A stretch of 64,000 bases of DNA. Source: Bacteroidota bacterium. GTDB taxonomy: Bacteria > Bacteroidota > Bacteroidia > Bacteroidales > UBA4417. Shown here one piece after another: positions 43,772-54,769 of this stretch. The position numbers and the translations under genes are program-made. Under the pieces are notes generated by a model. That model was not told the origin of the DNA. It saw only the letters and a list, made by a program, of their open reading frames with translations, and did not search any database. Numbering within the stretch: the first letter of the stretch is position 1; each line of letters opens with the position of its first letter. The stretch covers positions 225,694 through 289,693 of the forward strand of contig JACAAZ010000002.1 of NCBI GenBank assembly GCA_013376995.1, given 5' to 3'.

Positions 43772-44779
43772 TTAGTAGCCGGGAGGTGGAGTGGTTGATA
43801 GTTTATCCAACAATCGAAGGGTTACATAGTTTATAAAGCCGTTTTCCTTTCCAAGGGAATAAGCACGGCTTACATGTGCGGGTTGCTCCGCATATTCAAC
43901 ATCAAATACTGGTTTACCGGCTAGTTGCCATACTTTAAGCTGATCAAGGTATTCCTGGGTATCCAGAGGGTCAACGGCAACATCTCCCTGGCTTCCTCCA
44001 TTGTCAGGGTCGCCGGAACCATCATACCAGATATCTTCATGTGCAATGGCATCAAAAAGTTTTATGTAGTCCTGGTTAGCGCCCATTTCGGCTGCATTTT
44101 GAGCAATGAAAATAAAGGACGAATCGCGAGATCTTGCATAGGTAGCAAGTTCGGTAAGAAAAGAGACCAGTTCATTTTCCGGGTTTTTGCCCTCTGTAGC
44201 AGCCGCGGCAATAACTGCCGGTTCATTGTATATTTCCAGCCAATCCAGGTAAACCCCGTCGAAACCATCATCGATGATCTTACCCAGGCATTCTTTCATT
44301 ATGTTTTTCCATGCTGGCGACCAGTATTTTACGCCATAACTGTCATTCCATCCATCCGGATCAGGACTGAGTATCCATGTTGGGCTCCCGGGAGTCCAGC
44401 TGCTTTGCCAGTAAGCCCTGTAGGATTCTGCCTGCCCGACATCGAAATAGCAAAGCACCACCTTGGCTTTACCTTTTGAATTGGTTGATCCATGCATCCG
44501 GGCCACATCGCTTTTGGTATCATAATCCTCTGCTCCCAGTATGCTCCGTTGCTGATCCATCACGATGAGGTCGTAATGTGAATTACAAATAGCATCAATG
44601 GCTGCAGGTTCTTCCAGGCCGTCAAGCTGGTATGCCCAGAATCGGACATCCTGAAGCTTTCCTTTGTTTAAGGGGACTGGTGTATTGTCTTTCTTGCAGG
44701 AAAAAACAAGCGCACATGTCATCACCAGCAGGAAGGCAGTTTTAATCAAGAGAGGGAACAGATGTTTTGTGCTTGCCAT
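43772..44779 (-). CDS. GH114-type endo-alpha-1,4-polygalactosaminidase-like lipoprotein
   Basis: 335 residues. An N-terminal lipoprotein signal (VMTCALVFSCKKD, Cys near residue 28) leads to a TIM-barrel of the MJ1477/TM1410 (GH114-like) family: FWAYQLDG near the start, LIVMDQQRS, KVVLCYFDVGQAESYR and the acidic FDGVYLDWLEIYN, which carries the likely catalytic Asp. Family members cleave galactosaminogalactan-like polymers. It is exposed at the cell surface or periplasm and sits in a glycan gene cluster. Confidence 0.82.
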   Translation of the reverse strand: MASTKHLFPLLIKTAFLLVMTCALVFSCKKDNTPVPLNKGKLQDVRFWAYQLDGLEEPAAIDAICNSHYDLIVMDQQRSILGAEDYDTKSDVARMHGSTNSKGKAKVVLCYFDVGQAESYRAYWQSSWTPGSPTWILSPDPDGWNDSYGVKYWSPAWKNIMKECLGKIIDDGFDGVYLDWLEIYNEPAVIAAAATEGKNPENELVSFLTELATYARSRDSSFIFIAQNAAEMGANQDYIKLFDAIAHEDIWYDGSGDPDNGGSQGDVAVDPLDTQEYLDQLKVWQLAGKPVFDVEYAEQPAHVSRAYSLGKENGFINYVTLRLLDKLSTTPPPGY

Positions 44780-44846: not shown

Positions 44847-46397
44847 TCAATTAGTATGAAAAGCTTTATACACCAGTATGTTATTCTGTTCCCCGAGTTT
44901 TACACCCAGCTGCTTTACAAGGTTTGGATTCTCGAGGTAATTCCGGTCAGTCAGGATGATCACTTCAGCACCATTGAAAATATGATACCCCAGGGTCTGC
45001 ATGCTTTTAAAGCTGGTATCCTTCAACGTCCAGCCCTGCCTGTCGAGGAAATAGAGGCCACCGTTCGGTGACAAATCAGTAAGAAGAACTACATGAGATT
45101 TCCTGGAAACACCAATTTCGTCAAGGTACTGGCAGCTGCCATCGAGTTTATCTCCAATCACCGAAAACAAGTCCTCCTTAGTATCGTAGCGCTTCTCCAT
45201 TTTCTGCCTTGCATAATTGAGACTGAGCAGGCAAAGTACCAGGAATGCCAATCGTGTGAGGAGGTGAGATGACAGGACCGGGAACCGGTTCGAGAATGAG
45301 GTAAATGCATTGATTATCACGAAAACCAGGCCAGGGATCAGACCGAGAAAATAGTAATCATGCTGCCGGAATTGTTCGAAAAAGAGCAAAAAATAACTAA
45401 CAGATCCTAATAGAACTACAACCGTAATGATCAACAACTGCCGGTTTGCAAACTTAACCAGGACAAATCCAAGAATGGCAAGGATTGCAAAGACGTGCAA
45501 GGTGCTTTGATAGTAATAAGAAGAATACCAGTAGTTGAAAATATAATCAAACACTTCATGAACTCCTGCTTTGTCCATCTCCCAAACCGGCCGTGTTGAC
45601 AAAAGGAAATAGGAATCATGGCTGGCATGGTTATACCGGATTGCATAGAGATTCCACGCAATGACCAAAAGAAGTGTGAATGTGAAGAATATGAAAGGCA
45701 TGAGATTCTTCCATAAAATGGAGACTGTGCCATTACCCTTGCTTATATCAGCCAGGATAAGAACGAGGAAGAAGGCTGCCGGATTCAGAAAAGTAGTGAC
45801 TTTGATGAGGGATGACAATGCAAAAAACAGGAAACCTGACAACAGTAAAGATTTCCTTTTTCTGTCAACCAGGAACCGGTATGAATAGTACCAGCCGGAT
45901 AGCGTCAATCCCAGGGCTGCAGCATCCGGCAGGAAATTATTTGCATAATAGAGAAGAATGGTGGAGGAAAGAAACAGGAAGGTGAAAACAAAAGCATAAA
46001 AAGTGTCCTCAATGAGCAGGAACAAAAGCCTGAAAAGGGAAAAGAAGCCGAATGTGCAAATGGATAGATTAATAAGCCGGAGAATAAATTCATGTTCGCC
46101 AAACAGGCGGTATATCCATGCAGACAGGTAGTAAAGGATAGGGAATTCGCAGGCAGCGCGTCCATCCTGGCTCATCAGGTTATATACACCCGGGGATAAG
46201 AAATGCATCCCATGGTTGAGATAATACCTGATAAAGGAGAGGCTGTCAGTTTGCCTGATAAAATGAATTCCCTGGGGATGCAGGAAAAGGATGTGCTGGT
46301 AGTTATAGAAAATGTAAACCAGTAAAAGGAGGACAATAAATACGCTGTTTTTATGTGTCCTTATGAAATCAGCCGTTTTAGCCAAAAGGATTTTCAC
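44847..46397 (-). CDS. Membrane glycosyltransferase (GT39/ArnT-like)
   Basis: 516 residues with about 11-12 membrane helices and a first large loop with acidic DxxS/R residues (RQTDSLSFIRYYLNHG), as in lipid-linked sugar transferases of the PMT/ArnT superfamily. It would use polyprenyl-phosphate sugars on the periplasmic side. The start is GTG at 46397, overlapping the GT2 stop (GTGA), which shows translational coupling. Sugar and acceptor are unknown. Confidence 0.78.
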   Translation of the reverse strand: MKILLAKTADFIRTHKNSVFIVLLLLVYIFYNYQHILFLHPQGIHFIRQTDSLSFIRYYLNHGMHFLSPGVYNLMSQDGRAACEFPILYYLSAWIYRLFGEHEFILRLINLSICTFGFFSLFRLLFLLIEDTFYAFVFTFLFLSSTILLYYANNFLPDAAALGLTLSGWYYSYRFLVDRKRKSLLLSGFLFFALSSLIKVTTFLNPAAFFLVLILADISKGNGTVSILWKNLMPFIFFTFTLLLVIAWNLYAIRYNHASHDSYFLLSTRPVWEMDKAGVHEVFDYIFNYWYSSYYYQSTLHVFAILAILGFVLVKFANRQLLIITVVVLLGSVSYFLLFFEQFRQHDYYFLGLIPGLVFVIINAFTSFSNRFPVLSSHLLTRLAFLVLCLLSLNYARQKMEKRYDTKEDLFSVIGDKLDGSCQYLDEIGVSRKSHVVLLTDLSPNGGLYFLDRQGWTLKDTSFKSMQTLGYHIFNGAEVIILTDRNYLENPNLVKQLGVKLGEQNNILVYKAFHTN

Positions 46398-47278
46398 CAG
46401 GAATTCCTCATTCGTTTAAACTTAGAGACAAGGTCCGTCATCTCCTCCAATCCGGGGATTGCCAGGTCATCCCGGAAGGGTTCTCCAATCCGCAGGTATT
46501 TTCGCATAAAGGTGTTTGCTGTAATTCCCCATTTGAGTAAGAACATCTTACGGCCCTTATTTCTTTTTACCCTTTTTGTTGATTTAGAACCGAAATGGTA
46601 AACCCGCGCTTTTCCAAGCCCTTTGAAATAGCGAACTCCCGCCTGGACAAGCTTCATTGAGAGATCCGGATCGGAATACATTCCAGGGCTGAATTCCGTA
46701 CTCATCCCGCCGACAAGATCCCAGCTGTCAACATGAACAACATTCGGAGGCCAGGTGCTTCCGTTCCAATCGGATTTTTCTAATTCCTGAAATTCCTTCA
46801 GCAGGTCCTGTTCCCGGAAACTTTCCAAATCATCCCCGTAGTTTTTGACAAGCACGCAGGAATTACCGGTATCGGCCGGCTCTATCATCGTACTGGATAG
46901 CATGAAGCTTTTATGCCCAATTCGCCTGATCTCATTCAACAGCTCAACATCCCAGCCAGGTAAGAGGTACATATCGTCATTTACATAAACCAGGTAATCC
47001 GATTTAATGAGAGATCGGGCAATATTCAACCCATAGCAGATCCCTATATTTTCCGAAGCATGGATATAATCGATGTCACCCTGTGATTCAAGCCAATCAG
47101 CAGTTCCGTCCTTCCCCTCATTTACGATCACAATCATCTGGATAGCATTCCCTGAGTTCTTTCGGATGCTTCCAAGGCAAAGCTTAAGATAATCCAGGTT
47201 GTTCCAGCTGGGTACCAGGACTGACAATGAATACCGGGGAAGGGGTGAGTGTTGATATTTCCGGATATCTTCGATCAT
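46394..47278 (-). CDS. Glycosyltransferase family 2
   Basis: 294 residues. The GT-A fold is clear: SVLVPSWNNLDYLKLCL at the start, the DxD-type motif YVNDDMYL, and GLNIARS; the C-terminal part (YSDPDLSMKLVQAGVRYF) is the acceptor side. It transfers a nucleotide-activated sugar in the cytoplasm. Overlap of 4 bases with the membrane glycosyltransferase suggests they work in sequence, e.g. building then moving a surface glycan. Confidence 0.9.
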   Translation of the reverse strand: MIEDIRKYQHSPLPRYSLSVLVPSWNNLDYLKLCLGSIRKNSGNAIQMIVIVNEGKDGTADWLESQGDIDYIHASENIGICYGLNIARSLIKSDYLVYVNDDMYLLPGWDVELLNEIRRIGHKSFMLSSTMIEPADTGNSCVLVKNYGDDLESFREQDLLKEFQELEKSDWNGSTWPPNVVHVDSWDLVGGMSTEFSPGMYSDPDLSMKLVQAGVRYFKGLGKARVYHFGSKSTKRVKRNKGRKMFLLKWGITANTFMRKYLRIGEPFRDDLAIPGLEEMTDLVSKFKRMRNSW

Positions 47279-47353: not shown

Positions 47354-48340
47354 CTAGAGGGAAGAGCTACCTGCAAGAAATCCCAGGTCGGCAAGGACAA
47401 TTGCCGTGGCAGCCTCAAGGATTACAGGCATTCGCAATGCAATGCAGGTATCATGGCGGCCCTGGATCTGCAAAGTTCCTGTTTTCCCGCTTTTAAGATC
47501 CAGGGTTTCCTGCGGCAATCCTATGCTGGAGGTTGGTTTAACAGCCACCCGGAACAGCAGTTCATTACCATTACTAATTCCCCCGTTAATACCCCCGGCA
47601 TTGTTCGTTAAGGTCTTTCCTGATGCATCCAGGATCGGATCATTATGCTCGCCGCCTTTCATCCTGGCTGCATTAAAGCCGGAACCGAATTCAATTCCCT
47701 TTATGGCAGGAATGGAGAATACCAAATGGCTTATCAAAGATTCTGCACTGTCGAAAAAAGGTTCACCCAGGCCGACAGGGATACCGGAAGCCGTACATTG
47801 AATGATACCGCCGATTGAATCTCCTGTACCGGCGATTGCATCCAGGGCTTTCTGTATATCTGTTTCACCGCCTATTTCCAGGATTTCGGAGGTGATATTC
47901 ACCGGGGCTATGATCTTTTTGGCAACTACGCCTGCAGCAACCAGAGCAAGCGTCATCCTGCCGGAGAAATGTCCACCTCCGCGGGGATCAGCATATCCCT
48001 TGAATTTTTTCCCGGCAGTGAAATCAGCATGCCCGGGCCGGGGTGTAGTAAGCAGGCTTGCATAATCGGATGATCGAACATCCGAATTCTCAAACAGGAT
48101 GGTGAGCGGTGCGCCTGTAGTTTTTTCCTTATAGATGCCCGAAATGATTTTTGGAAGGTCTGCCTCTTTCCTGGGGGTTGTGCCTTGTGCTCCACTCCTG
48201 CGCCTGGAGAGGTCATGCTCAAAATCGCTGGCAGAGAGCGAAATGCCGGGGGGGACGCCATCAATTACCAGCCCGATTGCGCTTCCATGAGATTCCCCGA
48301 AAACAGAAAGCCTGAATATTCTTCCAAATGAATTCATCAT
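47354..48340 (-). CDS. aroC: Chorismate synthase
   Basis: 328 residues, a little shorter than the usual ~350-360. The FMN/EPSP-binding signatures are present: FGESHG near residue 14, RRSGAQ, RPGHADF, and GRHDTC near the C-terminus (usually GRHDPC). It forms chorismate from EPSP, last step of the shikimate route. Last gene of the aromatic operon, 9 bp after aroA. Confidence 0.96.
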   Translation of the reverse strand: MMNSFGRIFRLSVFGESHGSAIGLVIDGVPPGISLSASDFEHDLSRRRSGAQGTTPRKEADLPKIISGIYKEKTTGAPLTILFENSDVRSSDYASLLTTPRPGHADFTAGKKFKGYADPRGGGHFSGRMTLALVAAGVVAKKIIAPVNITSEILEIGGETDIQKALDAIAGTGDSIGGIIQCTASGIPVGLGEPFFDSAESLISHLVFSIPAIKGIEFGSGFNAARMKGGEHNDPILDASGKTLTNNAGGINGGISNGNELLFRVAVKPTSSIGLPQETLDLKSGKTGTLQIQGRHDTCIALRMPVILEAATAIVLADLGFLAGSSSL

Positions 48341-48349
48341 CTATTGATT

Positions 48350-49603
48350 TTATAAAACAGCTTGTCGAACCCCCAATTTTTCAAGGTCTTCGAAGAAACC
48401 GGGATAGGATTTGTCAACACATTGAATATCTGCGATAGTGACAGGCCCATCAGCACCTATGGCTGCAATTGCCGCCATCATGGCAATGCGGTGATCGTTG
48501 CAGGAATTAACATGCCCGGCCTTTGGTGTGCCACCCGTTATAAGCATTTCATTCCCGGCGACCTGCACTTTTATTCCAACATTTTTGAGCATGTTGCCTA
48601 TGCTTTCGGCCCGGTTGCTTTCCTTATGCAATAGCCGTTCCACTCCTGAAATTGAAGAGATTCCGTCTGCATATGCGGCCAATACTGCCAGGGGAGGAAA
48701 GAGGTCGGGGCAGTCGGAGGCATCAAATTGAAATGCCCTGATTTTAGAGGTGATTACCTCAACAGAAGTGCCATCAAGAATGTATTTAACACCAGCTTTT
48801 TCAAGTACTTCAAGTATTACTCTATCTGCCTGACGGCTATCCATACGAAGGCCATGAACGATAATGTTTCCGTGAATTGCGCCGGCAACCAATAGAAAAG
48901 CGGCATTGCTCCAGTCGCCCTCAACAGTGTATTGTTTTGCCTTGTATGCCTGTTTGCCTGGTATAATGAATTTCTGAAAGCCTTCATTATTAACCCGGAT
49001 GCCAAAGGTTTCAAGGAGTTCAAGGGTCATGTCGATATAGGGCCGGCTCCTGAGATTGCGGACTGTGATTTCTGAATTCTCTTCAGCAAGAGGCAAAGCC
49101 ATTAGTAAGCCGGTAAGCAACTGCGAACTCAATGACCCGTCTATGTCGGCGTTTCCCCCATGCAAAGGCCCTTGCAATTGAATGGGAAGAAAACCATTAT
49201 TAGAATTGATTCTGACACCAAACTGCTGAAGGGCTTCGCTGATCATTCCAGCAGGTCTCCTTAGAAGCGAACCTTCCCCCGAAATTGTAACAGGGGTATT
49301 GTACAAGGCTGCAATCGGTGAAAACATCCTGAGGGCAAGCCCGGATTCACCGCAATTCAATAAAGAGCCAATATTTCTTTGTCCGCTTATTACAGTTATA
49401 TCCCCTTTATTTTCCCAGAGATCACAGCCCAATTCCCTGGCAATACTGAATGCAGCTTGTGAATCATTACAATAGGATGGATTTATCAGGGTAGTTGATC
49501 CCTTTGCCAGGATAGCTGCAGCAATGGCCCGCTGGGTCATGCTTTTGCTGGGAGGAGCTTGAATGGAACCTCTAACTGTTGAGGGGAAAACGGACCTGTT
49601 CAT
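48350..49603 (-). CDS. aroA: 3-phosphoshikimate 1-carboxyvinyltransferase (EPSP synthase)
   Basis: 417 residues, the normal two-lobed enzyme. PPSKSMTQRAIAAA at the N-terminus, NCGESGLALRM, DGSLSSQ and the late NDHRIAMMAA segment are its known signatures. It joins shikimate-3-phosphate and PEP. Sits between the DAHP synthase-chorismate mutase gene (31 bp) and aroC (9 bp). Confidence 0.96.
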   Translation of the reverse strand: MNRSVFPSTVRGSIQAPPSKSMTQRAIAAAILAKGSTTLINPSYCNDSQAAFSIARELGCDLWENKGDITVISGQRNIGSLLNCGESGLALRMFSPIAALYNTPVTISGEGSLLRRPAGMISEALQQFGVRINSNNGFLPIQLQGPLHGGNADIDGSLSSQLLTGLLMALPLAEENSEITVRNLRSRPYIDMTLELLETFGIRVNNEGFQKFIIPGKQAYKAKQYTVEGDWSNAAFLLVAGAIHGNIIVHGLRMDSRQADRVILEVLEKAGVKYILDGTSVEVITSKIRAFQFDASDCPDLFPPLAVLAAYADGISSISGVERLLHKESNRAESIGNMLKNVGIKVQVAGNEMLITGGTPKAGHVNSCNDHRIAMMAAIAAIGADGPVTIADIQCVDKSYPGFFEDLEKLGVRQAVL

Positions 49604-49634: not shown

Positions 49635-50759
49635 TTATTTCTCAATTGGGAGGCCTATTTCCATCATTGTATTCTCATTCATGACTTTTAGCTGGTGTGC
49701 AATGGATTCCTGGTGGATAGCCTTGAGAATGGTCGAGATAAATTCCACGCTTAACCCCTTGGTCCCGCCCTTACGGACAGCCTTATTCACAATTTCCTGC
49801 CAGCGGTTACTCTGAAGAATGGTGATATTATGCGCTTTTTTGAACTGGCCTATTGTTTGGGCAACCTGCATGCGGCGTTCAAGGATGTCGAGCAACAGGT
49901 CGTCATAAATATCGATCTGGCTCCGGAGTTCATCCATTGTACTCATAAACTGCGAATCAGGGGAGTCAACCGTGCGGAGGATCAGCTGGTCCAACAAGAT
50001 GCTCAGCTGATCCGGGGTTACCTGTTGTTTCTTATCGCTGAGGGCATGGTCAGGATCGAAATGGGATTCAATCATAAGTCCATCGTAATCAAGGTCCATA
50101 GCTTCCTGGGAAATATCCTGCAGGAAAGCCCTGTCGCCTCCCATATGGCTGGGATCGCAAAGGATCGAAAGCCCGGGGAACCGCTGGCGGAGATCAATGG
50201 CAATCTGCCATTTGGGCTGGTTACGGAAAGCCGTTTTTTCATATGAGGAGAACCCCCTGTGAATAGCGCCAATCCTGGTAATGCCCGCTTTGCAGAGTCG
50301 CTCAACAGCTCCTATCCATAATTCAAGTTCCGGGTTTATCGGGTTCTTTACAAATACCATTACATCAACTCCCTGGAGAGCATCAGCAATTTCCTGCATG
50401 GCAAAAGGGTTCACAGTTGTCCGGGCGCCGATCCATAAAACATCAACCCCGAATTTCAAAGCCTCATAAACATGTTTTTCAGTTGCAACTTCCGTAGCAG
50501 TGGGAAGACCTGTTTCCAGTTTAACCTGTTTAAGCCATTTCAGGCCTTCGGAACCAACACCTTCGAAGGAATTGGGGCGCGTCCTGGGTTTCCATATTCC
50601 TGCCCTGAAAACATCCACCTTGCCTGTAGCAGCTAATTCACGTGCTGTGATCATAAGTTGATCCTCAGATTCGGCACTGCACGGGCCGGCAATTATTAAC
50701 GGTTTATTCCTGAATATTTTCCAATTCCTGAGCGGTTCAATTTGAATATTAGTATTCAT
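49635..50759 (-). CDS. DAHP synthase-chorismate mutase fusion
   Basis: 374 residues from the ATG at 50759; an in-frame GTG at 50789 would add ten residues. Residues 1-270 are a type I-beta DAHP synthase (IIAGPCSAESEDQ, FRAGIWKPRTRPNSFEG, GARTTVNPFA, LCDPSHMGG). About 280-374 are an AroQ chorismate mutase (MDELRSQIDIYDDLLLDILERRM.., typical Arg/Lys pattern). The C-terminal mutase is the arrangement seen in Porphyromonas gingivalis, where it acts as a feedback sensor. Entry and branch-point control of the pathway in one chain. Confidence 0.95.
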   Translation of the reverse strand: MNTNIQIEPLRNWKIFRNKPLIIAGPCSAESEDQLMITARELAATGKVDVFRAGIWKPRTRPNSFEGVGSEGLKWLKQVKLETGLPTATEVATEKHVYEALKFGVDVLWIGARTTVNPFAMQEIADALQGVDVMVFVKNPINPELELWIGAVERLCKAGITRIGAIHRGFSSYEKTAFRNQPKWQIAIDLRQRFPGLSILCDPSHMGGDRAFLQDISQEAMDLDYDGLMIESHFDPDHALSDKKQQVTPDQLSILLDQLILRTVDSPDSQFMSTMDELRSQIDIYDDLLLDILERRMQVAQTIGQFKKAHNITILQSNRWQEIVNKAVRKGGTKGLSVEFISTILKAIHQESIAHQLKVMNENTMMEIGLPIEK

Positions 50760-50808
50760 AAGAGTAAGTTTAGATTTGTAAGCCAGCACTATATAGTATT
50801 GATTTTCC

Positions 50809-51735
50809 TTAATTCAGTGGTGATACGATATATGCAGTAGTTGTTGATTTATGTTTGTTTTGGTCAAGGATCTTTTCAATTTTATTTGCCTCTTTCATTA
50901 GATCCAGCAAGCTGTCAGGGTCGTTCATCATGATATACTGCCTGAAAAGCATAACCTTCTCAATGTAATTATCAATGACTTCAAGCAGCGGCTTTGCATT
51001 CTGCAGGAAAATAGGAGCCCAGGTTGCACTATTGCTTTTAGCCAGCCTGACAGTGCTTTCAAACCCACCGGCAGCAAGGCTTAAAATATTCTTCTCGTCT
51101 TTTTCCTTGTCGAGGACCGAAAGTGCCAAAGCAAAAGAACTGATATGCGACAGGTGCGATACGTAAGCAACATGGATATCATGTTCAGCGGAATTCATTA
51201 ATGAGATTCCCATTCCGAGTGTGGTAAGCATTCCTGAGATCAGATTCATGGCATCCTCATCGGAGTTCTGGCTATCACAAATGATGGCAAGCTTATTGTC
51301 GAAAAGCTTGTCTTTTGCTGCAAGCGGTCCTGAATACTCTGTGCCGGCCATAGGGTGGACAGCCACATACCGGCCTCTCAACGGGTGATTCTTCACGGTC
51401 CCTATAATATCCGCCTTGGTAGATCCCATATCGGCGACAACCTTACTCGTCCCTTTAACCCTGTCGAGGATATGAGGGAGCAGCCTTGAATTTACACTGA
51501 CCGGGGCACAAAGCAGTATGACATCCGATTGATCAATAGCCTGGTCCAGTTCGAGGATTTGATCCACCAATCCGTGGAGCAGCGCAAGATTGCGGTGTTC
51601 CTTGCTGGAATCCACGCCTATTATCTGACGGGCAAAACCCTTGTTTCTCAGGCTTAGGGCCAGGGAACCACCAATTAAGCCGATTCCGAGGATGCAGGTT
51701 GTTTTAGATACAATAGCTATTCTTTCTGTGTTCAT
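50809..51735 (-). CDS. tyrA: Prephenate dehydrogenase
   Basis: 308 residues. The N-terminal NAD-binding fold has GIGLIGGSLALSL and the chain keeps the conserved MAGTEYSG and HDIHVAYVSHLSHISSFAL segments that bind prephenate. It makes 4-hydroxyphenylpyruvate for tyrosine. Between the aminotransferase gene (43 bp) and the DAHP synthase gene. Confidence 0.93.
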   Translation of the reverse strand: MNTERIAIVSKTTCILGIGLIGGSLALSLRNKGFARQIIGVDSSKEHRNLALLHGLVDQILELDQAIDQSDVILLCAPVSVNSRLLPHILDRVKGTSKVVADMGSTKADIIGTVKNHPLRGRYVAVHPMAGTEYSGPLAAKDKLFDNKLAIICDSQNSDEDAMNLISGMLTTLGMGISLMNSAEHDIHVAYVSHLSHISSFALALSVLDKEKDEKNILSLAAGGFESTVRLAKSNSATWAPIFLQNAKPLLEVIDNYIEKVMLFRQYIMMNDPDSLLDLMKEANKIEKILDQNKHKSTTTAYIVSPLN

Positions 51736-51778: not shown

Positions 51779-52984
51779 TCATGCGGTTTTTCCGATCATA
51801 CTATTTGTGTTTGCTTCCATGATCCTTTCCAGCGCTGTTGAAAGCAGGGCTTTGTTACTGCAAAGTGAGATACGGATATATGGATTTCCATTTTTGCCGA
51901 AGATGAACCCTGGTGTAAGGAATAGATTCAGCTCACGGAGGAGGTAATCAGCAAAATCTTCAGAGGATGACCAGGTTCCCGGGATGCGGGCCCAGAGAAA
52001 TAGTCCGGCCTGGCGGGGATCAAGTTCGCACCCTAGTTCTTTCAATATTTCAAATGCAATTTTCCTTCGGTCGTGGTATGCACTATTCAGTGATTTGTAC
52101 CAGGAGGCATCAGCATTTAATGCTTTAACAGCTGCTTTTTGAATGCCCAGGAACATGCCTGAATCCATATTGCTTTTTACCTGAAGGATCGATTTGATAT
52201 ATTCCCTGTGGCCACCAATCATTCCAACCCTCCAGCCGGCCATATTGTGTGATTTGCTCAGGGAGTTCAGTTCCAGGGCAACCTCACGGGCCCCTTCAAC
52301 TTCCAGGATACTTAAATACTCTTCATTGAGAATGAAACTGTAAGGGTTATCATTGCAGATAAGGATATGATGTTTCCTTGCAAATGCAACAAGGTTTTCG
52401 AATAATTCCCTTGTGGCCTTTGTTCCTGTGGGCATATGGGGATAATTCACCCACATCAGCTTTACTTTTTTCAGACCTTGCTTTTCCAGCAAGTTTAGAT
52501 CCGGGTACCAGCCATTCTTTTCAAGAAGGTCATAATAACGAACTGAACCACCAACCATCCTTGTAACTGATTCATAAGCCGGGTAACCCGGATCAGGGAT
52601 CAGTACTTCATCCCCTGGATTTACAAAGGCCATGCTTACATGCATGATCCCTTCCTTAGAGCCAAGCAAAGGAAGTATTTCGCCGGAGGGATCCAGTTCA
52701 ACGTTGAAGAAGCTGCTATACCAGGAAGAAAAGGCTTCCCTGAGCGGTAATATCCCGTTGTATGACTGGTATCCATGTGCCCCGGGATTCGCCGAGACTT
52801 TTGAAAGCTCTTCTGATACATCAGGATGAGGGGGAAGATCGGGGCTTCCAATTCCCAGGTTAATTACCGGGAACCCATTGCGGCGCATTTCTTCCATTTG
52901 CTTCAGTTTCCTGGAGAAGTAGTACTCCTGGACCAGGCTGGTTCGCCTGGCCGGATGAATTAATTCGGGGTTTCCAATGTTCAT
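51779..52984 (-). CDS. Class I/II PLP aminotransferase (aromatic operon)
   Basis: 401 residues. The PLP Lys is in SLSKSHNMAGWR, the conserved aspartate-asparagine region is in NYPHMPTG (usually NNPxxPTG) and NDNPYSF. First gene of the aromatic operon, so it likely does the last step to Tyr and Phe; LL-DAP aminotransferase-like enzymes look similar, so this is not certain. Translation start at 52984, 33 bases after the attenuator. Confidence 0.85.
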   Translation of the reverse strand: MNIGNPELIHPARRTSLVQEYYFSRKLKQMEEMRRNGFPVINLGIGSPDLPPHPDVSEELSKVSANPGAHGYQSYNGILPLREAFSSWYSSFFNVELDPSGEILPLLGSKEGIMHVSMAFVNPGDEVLIPDPGYPAYESVTRMVGGSVRYYDLLEKNGWYPDLNLLEKQGLKKVKLMWVNYPHMPTGTKATRELFENLVAFARKHHILICNDNPYSFILNEEYLSILEVEGAREVALELNSLSKSHNMAGWRVGMIGGHREYIKSILQVKSNMDSGMFLGIQKAAVKALNADASWYKSLNSAYHDRRKIAFEILKELGCELDPRQAGLFLWARIPGTWSSSEDFADYLLRELNLFLTPGFIFGKNGNPYIRISLCSNKALLSTALERIMEANTNSMIGKTA

Positions 52985-53016
52985 TATCGTTAGGTTAGTG
53001 AGGGTAGATTCCAGGC

Positions 53017-53044
53017 AAAAAAAAAGGCCCCGTTATGGGACCTT
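53017..53044 (-). terminator. Attenuator terminator of the aromatic operon
   Basis: Read on the minus strand: AAGGTCCC, loop ATAAC, GGGGCCTT, then a run of T. The 8-bp stem has one G-U pair in RNA of this strand (it would be a C-A mismatch on the other), so it is built for minus-strand RNA. It stands between leader peptide and the aminotransferase gene and can stop transcription before the operon. Confidence 0.85.
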
Positions 53045-53064
53045 CTCGTTTATGTTTTTCTTCT

Positions 53065-53160
53065 TTACAGAAGTATAAATAACGATCCAATCCCCATCCT
53101 GCTACGATAGTAGTAAGAGAAGATTTGATAATACAGACCGTTGGTAAATGTTGTTCTCAT
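53065..53160 (-). CDS. Leader peptide of the aromatic operon (Tyr/Phe attenuator)
   Basis: 31 codons from ATG at 53160 to TAA at 53067-53065. Eight of 31 residues are aromatic: Phe5, Tyr10, Tyr11, Phe14, Tyr16, Tyr17, Tyr18 and Phe28. The peptide has no domain and is followed 20 bases later by an intrinsic terminator, just as in pheL/trpL-type attenuators. A sequence after the Tyr codons (minus strand GGGATT, 53094-53089) can pair with the GGTCCC of the terminator's first arm, a plausible antiterminator. Tyr starvation would stall the ribosome and allow read-through into the operon. Too short for usual gene finders. Confidence 0.8.
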   Translation of the reverse strand: MRTTFTNGLYYQIFSYYYRSRMGIGSLFILL

Positions 53161-53175
53161 GGGTATTGCTTAATA

Positions 53176-53183
53176 CAAAAGTA
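53176..53183 (-). promoter_or_regulatory. -7 element of the aromatic leader (TACTTTTG)
   Basis: TACTTTTG on the minus strand fits TAnnTTTG; it ends 15 bases before the leader ATG, giving a short 5' leader as attenuators have. The -33 element is not clear. Confidence 0.45.
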
Positions 53184-53386
53184 GCGTTAATTCTGATTTT
53201 AACTGCATTTTCATGATAAAAAAGTTGTCATTTAGTAAATTTATTATTTTAAGTATTTGACATACAGCATGATATATAAAACAGATTCACGTATATAAAA
53301 TATATGCTTTTAATCAAACTTATTGGCACTATTCACTTTTGATGAAATCAGGTATTCCTAACTTAGCAATCTATAATTTAAAAAGC

Positions 53387-54769
53387 ATGATGAAAGCGCC
53401 ACAACTACTGATTTTAGGTTTTCTCTTCCTGGGTATAGGGTTAGCATCCGCACAAAAGCCGGCAATAACTGACAAAAGTCCCGGTAATGAGGCCATAAAT
53501 AAGAAAGAGATGGCAGATGAAGTTAAGGATGCTATGATCCATGCCTGGGCCGGGTATAAAGAATATGCCTGGGGAATGGATGCCCTCAAGCCTGTATCAA
53601 AAACAGCTGAGAACTGGTACCCGGAAACTTTGCTGATGACTCCCGTCGACGCATATGATGCCTTGCTGATCATGGGATTGAAAGATCAGGCTTCTGAAGC
53701 AAAAGAGTTGATCTTGTCAAAATTGGATTTTAATAAAGATATGGAAGTTCAGAATTTTGAAGTCTCCATCCGGTTATTGGGTGGTTTATTATCAGCCTAC
53801 GAACTGGATGGTGATAAAAAATTCCTGGATCTTGCATCTGACCTTGGTTCCCGGTTGATCAAAACTTTTGAATCACCTACCGGGATGCCATACAGGTATA
53901 TCAATCTCAGGACAGGAGTTAAGCATGGAGAGATATCAAATCCTGCAGAAATAGGGACCTACCTGGTAGAGTTTGGCATACTTAGTCATCATACCGGGGA
54001 CCAAAGATATTTTGAAACAGCTAAAAAGGCCATGAAGGCATTATATCAAAGGTGCTCAAAGATAGGTTTGCCCGGTTCAACCATTAACATTGAAACCGGG
54101 GAATGGGTTTCAACGGAGTCTCACATTTCGGGTGGGATAGACTCTTATTTTGAATATCTGCTCAAAGCTGCCATCCTTTTCCAGGACGAAGAGCTGATGA
54201 AGATGTGGAAAAGTTCTGCAGAGGCCATTCGATTGTACCTGTCTGACAAAAAAGAGGGGGAATTATGGTACCGGCATGTTGATATGAACAGTGGAGCCGT
54301 TATCAGTACCCGGTACGGGGCGTTGGATGCTTTTTTTGTTGGCAGCCTTGTACTATCAGGCGACATTGAAAGTGCTGCCGCCCTGCAGGAGTCAAATTAT
54401 AAAATGTGGATGCTGCAGGGGATAGAACCCGAAGAAATTGATTATGGAACGATGAAAATCATATATGACGGATATGCACTCAGGCCGGAAAATATAGAAG
54501 GCGCCTACTACATGTACCAGGCTACTGCTGATGAGAAGTATTTGAAAATGGGCCAGTCAATGTTCAGGAACCTGGTTAAGTATTGCAGGAATGATGCGGG
54601 TTTTTGTGCCTTGAAAAGTGTTGTCACAAAAGAGAATGAGGATTCAATGGAGAGTTTCTTCCTGGCAGAGACCCTGAAATATGCCTATCTCCTTTTTGAT
54701 GATTCAAACAAAATAACTTTCTCAAAAGCGATATTTGGTACTGAGGCACATCCTTACAAGCGATTTTAG
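53387..54769 (+). CDS. GH47 alpha-1,2-mannosidase
   Basis: 460 residues from the ATG at 53387, which starts a clean signal peptide (MMKAPQLLILGFLFLGIGLA SAQ); a start at 53339 would add 16 residues before it. The barrel has GH47 signatures: VDAYDALLIMGL, FEVSIRLLGGLLSAYEL, DSYFEYLLKAA, YALRPENIEGAYY, ESFFLAETLKYAYLLF and the C-terminal calcium segment GTEAHPY with Thr. Such mannosidases trim alpha-1,2-mannose; they are common in eukaryotes and uncommon in bacteria. It is secreted here. Confidence 0.88.
   Translation: MMKAPQLLILGFLFLGIGLASAQKPAITDKSPGNEAINKKEMADEVKDAMIHAWAGYKEYAWGMDALKPVSKTAENWYPETLLMTPVDAYDALLIMGLKDQASEAKELILSKLDFNKDMEVQNFEVSIRLLGGLLSAYELDGDKKFLDLASDLGSRLIKTFESPTGMPYRYINLRTGVKHGEISNPAEIGTYLVEFGILSHHTGDQRYFETAKKAMKALYQRCSKIGLPGSTINIETGEWVSTESHISGGIDSYFEYLLKAAILFQDEELMKMWKSSAEAIRLYLSDKKEGELWYRHVDMNSGAVISTRYGALDAFFVGSLVLSGDIESAAALQESNYKMWMLQGIEPEEIDYGTMKIIYDGYALRPENIEGAYYMYQATADEKYLKMGQSMFRNLVKYCRNDAGFCALKSVVTKENEDSMESFFLAETLKYAYLLFDDSNKITFSKAIFGTEAHPYKRF

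Follow-up and report, generated by a model that had tools for sequence, protein, structure and literature searches.

A very probable ribosome-mediated transcription attenuator with a tyrosine-weighted leader peptide ahead of an aromatic amino acid operon in the Bacteroidales

The window, i.e. the whole stretch of 64,000 nucleotides that was analysed, contains on its minus strand five genes in the order aminotransferase-tyrA-DAHPS/CM-aroA-aroC, which are separated by intergenic gaps of 9-43 nt (Table 1). Pfam matches agree with the gene names given by the initial annotation and add one refinement, namely a type II chorismate mutase to which the DAHP synthase is fused. Downstream of aroC, a glycosyltransferase family 2 gene and then a GH114-type gene are found (43772-44779 and 46394-47278, both on the minus strand). 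Divergent from the leader described below lies a gene for a family 47 glycosyl hydrolase (PF01532; 53339-54769, plus strand), whose listed TTG start appears by eye to be too early, a signal-peptide-like start being located near 53390. The genome from which the window stems is 96.66% complete, and no match to PF00800 (pheA, prephenate dehydratase), to HisG or to the N-terminal part of anthranilate synthase (trpE) was obtained in it. With pheA, hisG and trpE all undetected, the operon likely serves no aromatic amino acid other than tyrosine. The organism is perhaps auxotrophic for several amino acids.

Ahead of the aminotransferase gene, a short leader peptide frame is present, MRTTFTNGLYYQIFSYYYRSRMGIGSLFILL, whose translation yields the eight aromatic codons that had been described initially, i.e. 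Phe5, Tyr10-11, Phe14, Tyr16-18 and Phe28, with a maximum of six aromatic residues in ten. It is preceded, at the distance given before, by the -7 element TACTTTTG, which corresponds to TAnnTTTG and which we take to be a promoter element of the Bacteroidota type. The frame is followed by an intrinsic terminator with the sequence GAGAAGGTCCC-ATAAC-GGGGCCTTTTT (53047-53021), after which more T residues are found. Its 8-bp core AAGGTCCC/GGGGCCTT includes one G-U pair, which had been noted initially to work only in minus-strand RNA. A terminator scan of positions 52500-53600 detects the terminator on the minus strand only; the shuffle mean was 1.3 terminator-like sites.

Table 1. Positions of the operon genes and of the leader features within the window.
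Feature	Positions	Strand	Basis
aroC, chorismate synthase	47354..48340	-	PF01264
aroA, EPSP synthase	48350..49603	-	PF00275
DAHP synthase fused to type II chorismate mutase	49635..50789	-	PF00793 + PF01817
tyrA, prephenate dehydrogenase	50809..51735	-	PF02153 + PF20463
Class I/II aminotransferase, first operon gene	51779..52984	-	PF00155
Intrinsic terminator (segments 3:4) and T run	53017..53047	-	terminator scan, predicted folds
Segment 3 (AACGA + GGTCCC), predicted 3' part of antiterminator	53037..53050	-	predicted helices
Segment 2 (GGGATT + TCGTT), predicted 5' part of antiterminator	53081..53094	-	predicted helices, shuffle z
Leader peptide frame MRTTFTNGLYYQIFSYYYRSRMGIGSLFILL with stop, 31 codons	53065..53160	-	sequence, translation
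Putative control codons Tyr16-17-18 (TAC TAC TAT)	53107..53115	-	ribosome-stall folding
Segment 1, over Phe/Tyr codons; predicted to pair with segment 2 in the absence of a ribosome (1:2 hairpin)	53110..53142	-	untranslated-leader helices
Tyr10-11 codons	53128..53133	-	modelled stall leaves the antiterminator and a small hairpin upstream of it
-7 promoter element TACTTTTG (TAnnTTTG)	53176..53183	-	sequence; ATG 15 nt further on

Homologues of the aminotransferase occur in 96 of 295 genomes of the order and in 11 of 16 genomes of the genus, the window's genome included. The 99 upstream regions of the order set comprise the fetched relatives, the window and L014. Of the 94 order matches other than G000 and G015, the set omits G252, G292 and G297 (near a contig start) and, inadvertently, G273, and of the ten genus relatives it omits G009 and G013 (contig ends). 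In 79 of the 99 regions, a pheA match lies before the aminotransferase. Two of them (G003, G135) had no usable upstream sequence, and in 90 of the resulting 97 a frame with at least seven aromatic residues in ten, the density used as criterion for the order relatives, is found upstream of the first gene, as compared to 7 of 970 shuffles and 2 of 97 reverse strands. Frame and terminator together are present in 87 of the 97 regions versus none of 485 shuffles and none of 97 reverse strands, so that the conservation of a Tyr/Phe-rich frame with a terminator in related operons, which had been set as a test of the attenuator, is evident within the order. Among the seven regions below this density, the leaders of the window's genome (G000), G015 and G176 are weaker but recognisable and that of G062 is doubtful, and no leader is visible upstream of the first gene in G020, G031 and G106.

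Outside the order, the same frame was detected in 35 of 58 regions from the class and in 2 of 22 places from the rest of the phylum, with none of 80 reverse strands and none of 400 shuffles of these two samples reaching seven. The class sample comprised the 49 full matches outside the order (the partial match G423 being left out) and 9 of 11 further ones (G564 and G618 were omitted because their genus had already been sampled), the phylum sample from 30 places in 29 genomes that were chosen from 95 with a match, and 80 of the 88 chosen places could be retrieved (58 class, 22 phylum). The frame is also seen in 76 of the best 80 of at least 587 relatives, including Bacteroides fragilis, Phocaeicola vulgatus and B. 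xylanisolvens; these 80 are close relatives and overlap with the order genome set (G304, G017), so that pooled counts are not independent. In 91 of 133 leaders from order, class and phylum, a TAnnTTTG element is found no more than 75 nt ahead of the leader start, where shuffles let 8.5 be expected, and the same holds for 73 of 75 loci from the best-80 set (4.2 expected). Within related clusters, third codon positions are the most variable, and an exchange between Phe and Tyr is the commonest replacement.

It could be argued that the frame encodes an ordinary small protein or has arisen by chance in front of a simple terminator, with no regulation involved. T-rich intergenic DNA does produce such frames fairly often, as one with at least six aromatic residues in ten arises in 27 of 1000 shuffles that preserve the dinucleotides of the window's own 540 nt, but such a frame is accompanied by a terminator in only one of the 1000 shuffles, and position, spacing and complementarity are conserved within the order and a large part of the class. 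The peptides of the relatives, moreover, differ greatly outside the aromatic run, which is unlike a functional small protein. We regard this explanation as extremely unlikely.

The folds predicted for the window's leader are trpL-like, with mutually exclusive 1:2, 2:3 and 3:4 pairings. In the untranslated leader, segment 1 (53142-53110) is predicted to pair with segment 2 and its surroundings (53105-53081), and the terminator stays intact. Both alternate structures that had been proposed are reproduced by the folding model, the antiterminator at the stall and the terminator at the stop codon. When a ribosome reach of 15 nt is assumed and segment 4 has not yet been made, stalls at Tyr16, Tyr17 and Tyr18 leave an antiterminator of -17.3, -17.3 and -17.6 kcal/mol, respectively. 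This consists of GGGATT (53094-53089) paired with GGTCCC (53042-53037), as described initially, and of a TCGTT:AACGA extension that was absent from the initial annotation; the GGTCCC of segment 3 doubles as part of the terminator 5' arm. The antiterminator is also left by stalls modelled at Tyr10 or Tyr11. With the ribosome at Ser20 it is gone and the best fold reaches -7.9 kcal/mol, and with the ribosome at the stop codon the terminator alone forms (-16.8 kcal/mol). Compared with shuffles of the same stretch, the antiterminator has a z of -3.63, none of 200 being as good.

Some results count against the attenuator reading. In the complete RNA, folding lets the terminator win even with a stalled ribosome, which means that the switch must be kinetic and decided during transcription. 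The contiguous 6-bp match of GGGATT and GGTCCC taken alone is not significant (p 0.13), but contiguous complementarity understates the window's antiterminator, because the latter is composed of two outer helices and a nested hairpin. Finally, the window's copy is weaker than most, with six aromatic residues in ten, an antiterminator that is matched or beaten by 72% of the arms that were sampled from other loci, and a modelled stall-state sequestration of the terminator arm that exceeds 18 of 20 shuffles, a modest value. Features that characterize the trpL/pheL type are nevertheless found here, namely clustered codons for the end product (five Tyr, three of them adjacent), a terminator before the first gene, exclusive pairings in the predicted folds and the modelled geometry of segment 2. 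Attenuation by stalling at the Tyr codons, as initially suggested, thus appears to be supported by conservation and by the alternative folds.

The position of segment 2 could be followed across many leaders. A terminator is located within 150 nt of the aromatic cluster in 205 of 211 leaders, and for 75 of the 92 order leaders that have a terminator the complementarity between segment 2 and the terminator arm reaches p <= 0.05 against shuffled intervals. Segment 2 starts at a median of 12 nt past the final aromatic codon of the cluster (5-95%: 7-18 nt; 205 leaders) and, in 203 of 205 leaders, extends no further than 13 nt beyond the stop codon, which is about where the footprint of a ribosome would free or cover it. 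The geometry for a segment 2 that is free at the stall and unavailable at the stop codon is seen in 193 of 205 leaders. In 188 of 205 leaders, segment 2 fits its own terminator arm better than it fits swapped arms on average, although this and the other leader-level tests (spacing, Tyr share, codons and promoter) ignore descent, and segment 2 follows changes of the arm, for example in G262, G114, G146 and G147. Folding with a modelled ribosome predicts a sequestration above one half for the 5' arm of the terminator in 166 of 205 leaders at the stall, in 24 three codons further on and in 8 at the stop codon. With shuffled intervals, the arm is likewise sequestered in 101 of 205 cases, and no more than 105 of the 205 leaders do better than 19 or more of their 20 shuffles, so that this folding test is weak when taken alone.

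A terminator and alternative folds would also be present in an RNA that binds a protein or a metabolite and makes use of the terminator, the frame then being incidental. Against such an RNA speaks that neither the window nor 16 related loci contain a match to an Rfam family that reaches the gathering score, and that conservation concerns the aromatic codons and the distance between them and segment 2, whose letters vary. A binding RNA of this kind is therefore highly improbable.

Which amino acid the attenuator would sense can be approached through the balance of tyrosine and phenylalanine codons. In the order set, the mean of Y/(F+Y) is 0.40 in the 75 leaders with pheA in the operon, 0.61 in the 8 leaders with pheA elsewhere in the genome and 0.71 in the 10 leaders for which no pheA was found, the window having 0.625; G106, G020, G031 and G062, which show no clear leader, were set aside. 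When averaged by family, 33 families with pheA in the operon have 0.41 and 13 without have 0.70 (p 1.7e-6), and the shift has the same direction in all three families that contain both kinds. Three families with pheA in the operon count against this relation, as their Tyr share is above 0.5, and the absence of pheA in drafts may be due to incompleteness (G028 is 79% and G176 is 88% complete). Eight pheA genes form separate loci, of which three have a Phe-dominated leader (G250, G043, G114) and one a mixed one (G154), and no leader was found at 4 of these 8 loci. The genomes with a Phe-dominated leader at the separate pheA have a Tyr-weighted leader at aminotransferase-tyrA (L128, L131, L123). 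The genus sister G010, a draft of about 630 contigs, has no PF00800 match in its genome, and its leader and terminator (L014, upstream of 1497) are followed by what appears by eye to be a pheA remnant with an internal deletion. This leader is still Phe-rich despite the missing pheA match, which was counted against the relation; it looks as if it had been caught before retuning, but given the draft assembly this serves as a lead only.

The same leader could respond to a wider signal, a variant that overlaps with our main explanation, in which Phe14 counts too and either both amino acids or a general slowing of the ribosome would be sensed. Phe14 lies two codons before the Tyr run, and most relatives mix Phe and Tyr. 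As modelled stalls at Tyr10 and Tyr11, which are upstream of Phe14, leave the antiterminator, a stall at Phe14 should by extrapolation leave it as well, and the modelled folds do not separate Tyr from Phe stalls. However, the three aromatic codons closest to segment 2 on its 5' side all encode Tyr and no pheA was found in the genome, which makes tyrosine a more likely signal than tyrosine and phenylalanine together, and a Tyr share above the mean of the pheA type is the rule for leaders without pheA in the operon (above 0.40 in 18 of 18). We think that the wider signal is possible but rather unlikely, and that tyrosine is probably the main signal of the window's leader. The initial annotation is thereby qualified, as the window's leader, in a genome without a detected pheA, looks more like a Tyr sensor than a Tyr/Phe sensor.

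The missing pheA could also be taken to mean that the leader is a decaying relic, i.e. an ancestral Phe/Tyr attenuator that has been idle since the loss of pheA and would now bring about no more than constitutive, partial termination. The leader of the window ranks with the weakest; it has a short segment 2, which fits its own terminator arm no better than those of other loci. Yet the frame, the Tyr codons at the right distance, an antiterminator well separated from its shuffles and a strong terminator have all been kept, and leaders without pheA in the operon shift towards Tyr and not towards other residues, so that we consider a relic improbable.

Some relatives seem to possess two leader-terminator units on one transcript. 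Two aromatic leaders in series, each with a terminator-like hairpin, were detected in 23 of 257 scanned regions from overlapping sets, for example in L050 (G180), L059 (G075), L068 (G230) and L112 (G228), and TAnnTTTG was found between the tandem units in none of the 23. Both units are more than half sequestered at the modelled stall in 11 of the 23, a count without shuffle control, and at least one unit is doubtful in G218, G361, G181, G028, G435 and G262. The second units of G180, G211, G083, G075, G285 and L258 have an aromatic run ending in Phe-Met in common.

Taken together, the leader is very likely a ribosome-mediated transcription attenuator of the aromatic operon, with charged tyrosyl-tRNA as its probable main signal. 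What has been observed are the elements in the sequence, how they are conserved and spaced, and the folds predicted for them. From these we infer where transcription starts, that the leader is translated and the ribosome stalls, how termination and read-through come about, and which effector is involved, as follows. Transcription would start just after TACTTTTG, and a ribosome would load on the 31-codon leader. With ample Tyr-tRNA, it would reach the stop codon, segment 2 would be behind or under the ribosome and unavailable, and the 3:4 terminator would form and end transcription near 53020. If charged Tyr-tRNA is scarce, the ribosome would stall at Tyr16-18 and hold segment 1, so that segment 2 could pair with segment 3, and the resulting 2:3 antiterminator would allow the polymerase to read into aminotransferase-tyrA-DAHPS/CM-aroA-aroC. 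Without translation, the 1:2 hairpin would protect the terminator.

For the order and much of the class, we consider it likely that an old leader-peptide attenuator acts on the aromatic operon, that its codons are retuned from Phe plus Tyr to Tyr when pheA leaves the operon, so that leader composition reads out the operon product, and that the device has been doubled in a minority of lineages. The change of control codons that follows the loss of a gene amounts to a natural experiment, which indicates the sensed amino acid without bench work. Ribosome-mediated attenuation requires that the leading ribosome keeps pace with the RNA polymerase, and to our knowledge the coupling of transcription and translation has been little tested in this group, which includes the gut species Bacteroides fragilis and Phocaeicola vulgatus. 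The widespread leaders are indirect evidence of such a coupling at these 5' ends.

The trpL/pheL class is characterized by a short leader peptide, alternative 1:2, 2:3 and 3:4 pairings and a terminator before a biosynthesis gene. With the enterobacterial pheL, i.e. the pheA attenuator (RF01859, Phe_leader), the leader described here shares the aromatic-rich peptide, the alternative pairing and the terminator, but the operon aminotransferase-tyrA-DAHPS/CM-aroA-aroC differs and the leader is Tyr-weighted. Membership in RF01859 was rejected, as the window scores 24.6 bits (E 0.066) and the gathering score is 55 bits; membership in RF01692 (Bacteroid-trp) was rejected as well, since the window has no match at the gathering score. 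Lopatovskaya et al. reportedly treated attenuation across bacteria in 2010. The Bacteroid-trp RNA holds a Trp leader peptide, and Flavobacterium psychrophilum belongs to the same phylum as the organism of the window. Bacteroid-trp was presented as a candidate cis-regulatory RNA of Bacteroidetes and is tied by its name to tryptophan genes, as far as the consulted part of that paper goes (Weinberg 2010; PMC2864571). For F. psychrophilum, a section of a transcriptome paper describes strong clues to attenuation by leader peptides ahead of amino acid operons, with 5' elements upstream of pheA and hisG, the pheA element being present in other Flavobacteriaceae genera and without Rfam hits (PMC9723704). 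The initial annotation knew of no experimental description for this phylum, which has to be qualified in view of these clues and holds in that the section infers attenuation from a transcript map only. Excerpts of further studies mention short frames that resemble leader peptides and lie in long 5' UTRs of B. thetaiotaomicron (PMC7366714), upstream frames with Phe/Tyr codons ahead of shikimate genes (PMC6429828) and uORFC-13-1 with Phe codons and an adjacent terminator stem (PMC8632094); in the excerpts of the latter two, no link of these candidates to the window's operon is apparent. A search of titles and abstract openings yielded no recognisable paper on a Bacteroidales pheA leader, on Tyr/Phe retuning or on tandem units. 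The mechanism class is already known, and the story of leader composition and tandem units was not found in the literature searched. In comparison with the F. psychrophilum section (PMC9723704), the leader sequences, the order-wide survey, the segment spacing, the Tyr/Phe retuning and the tandem units are added here.
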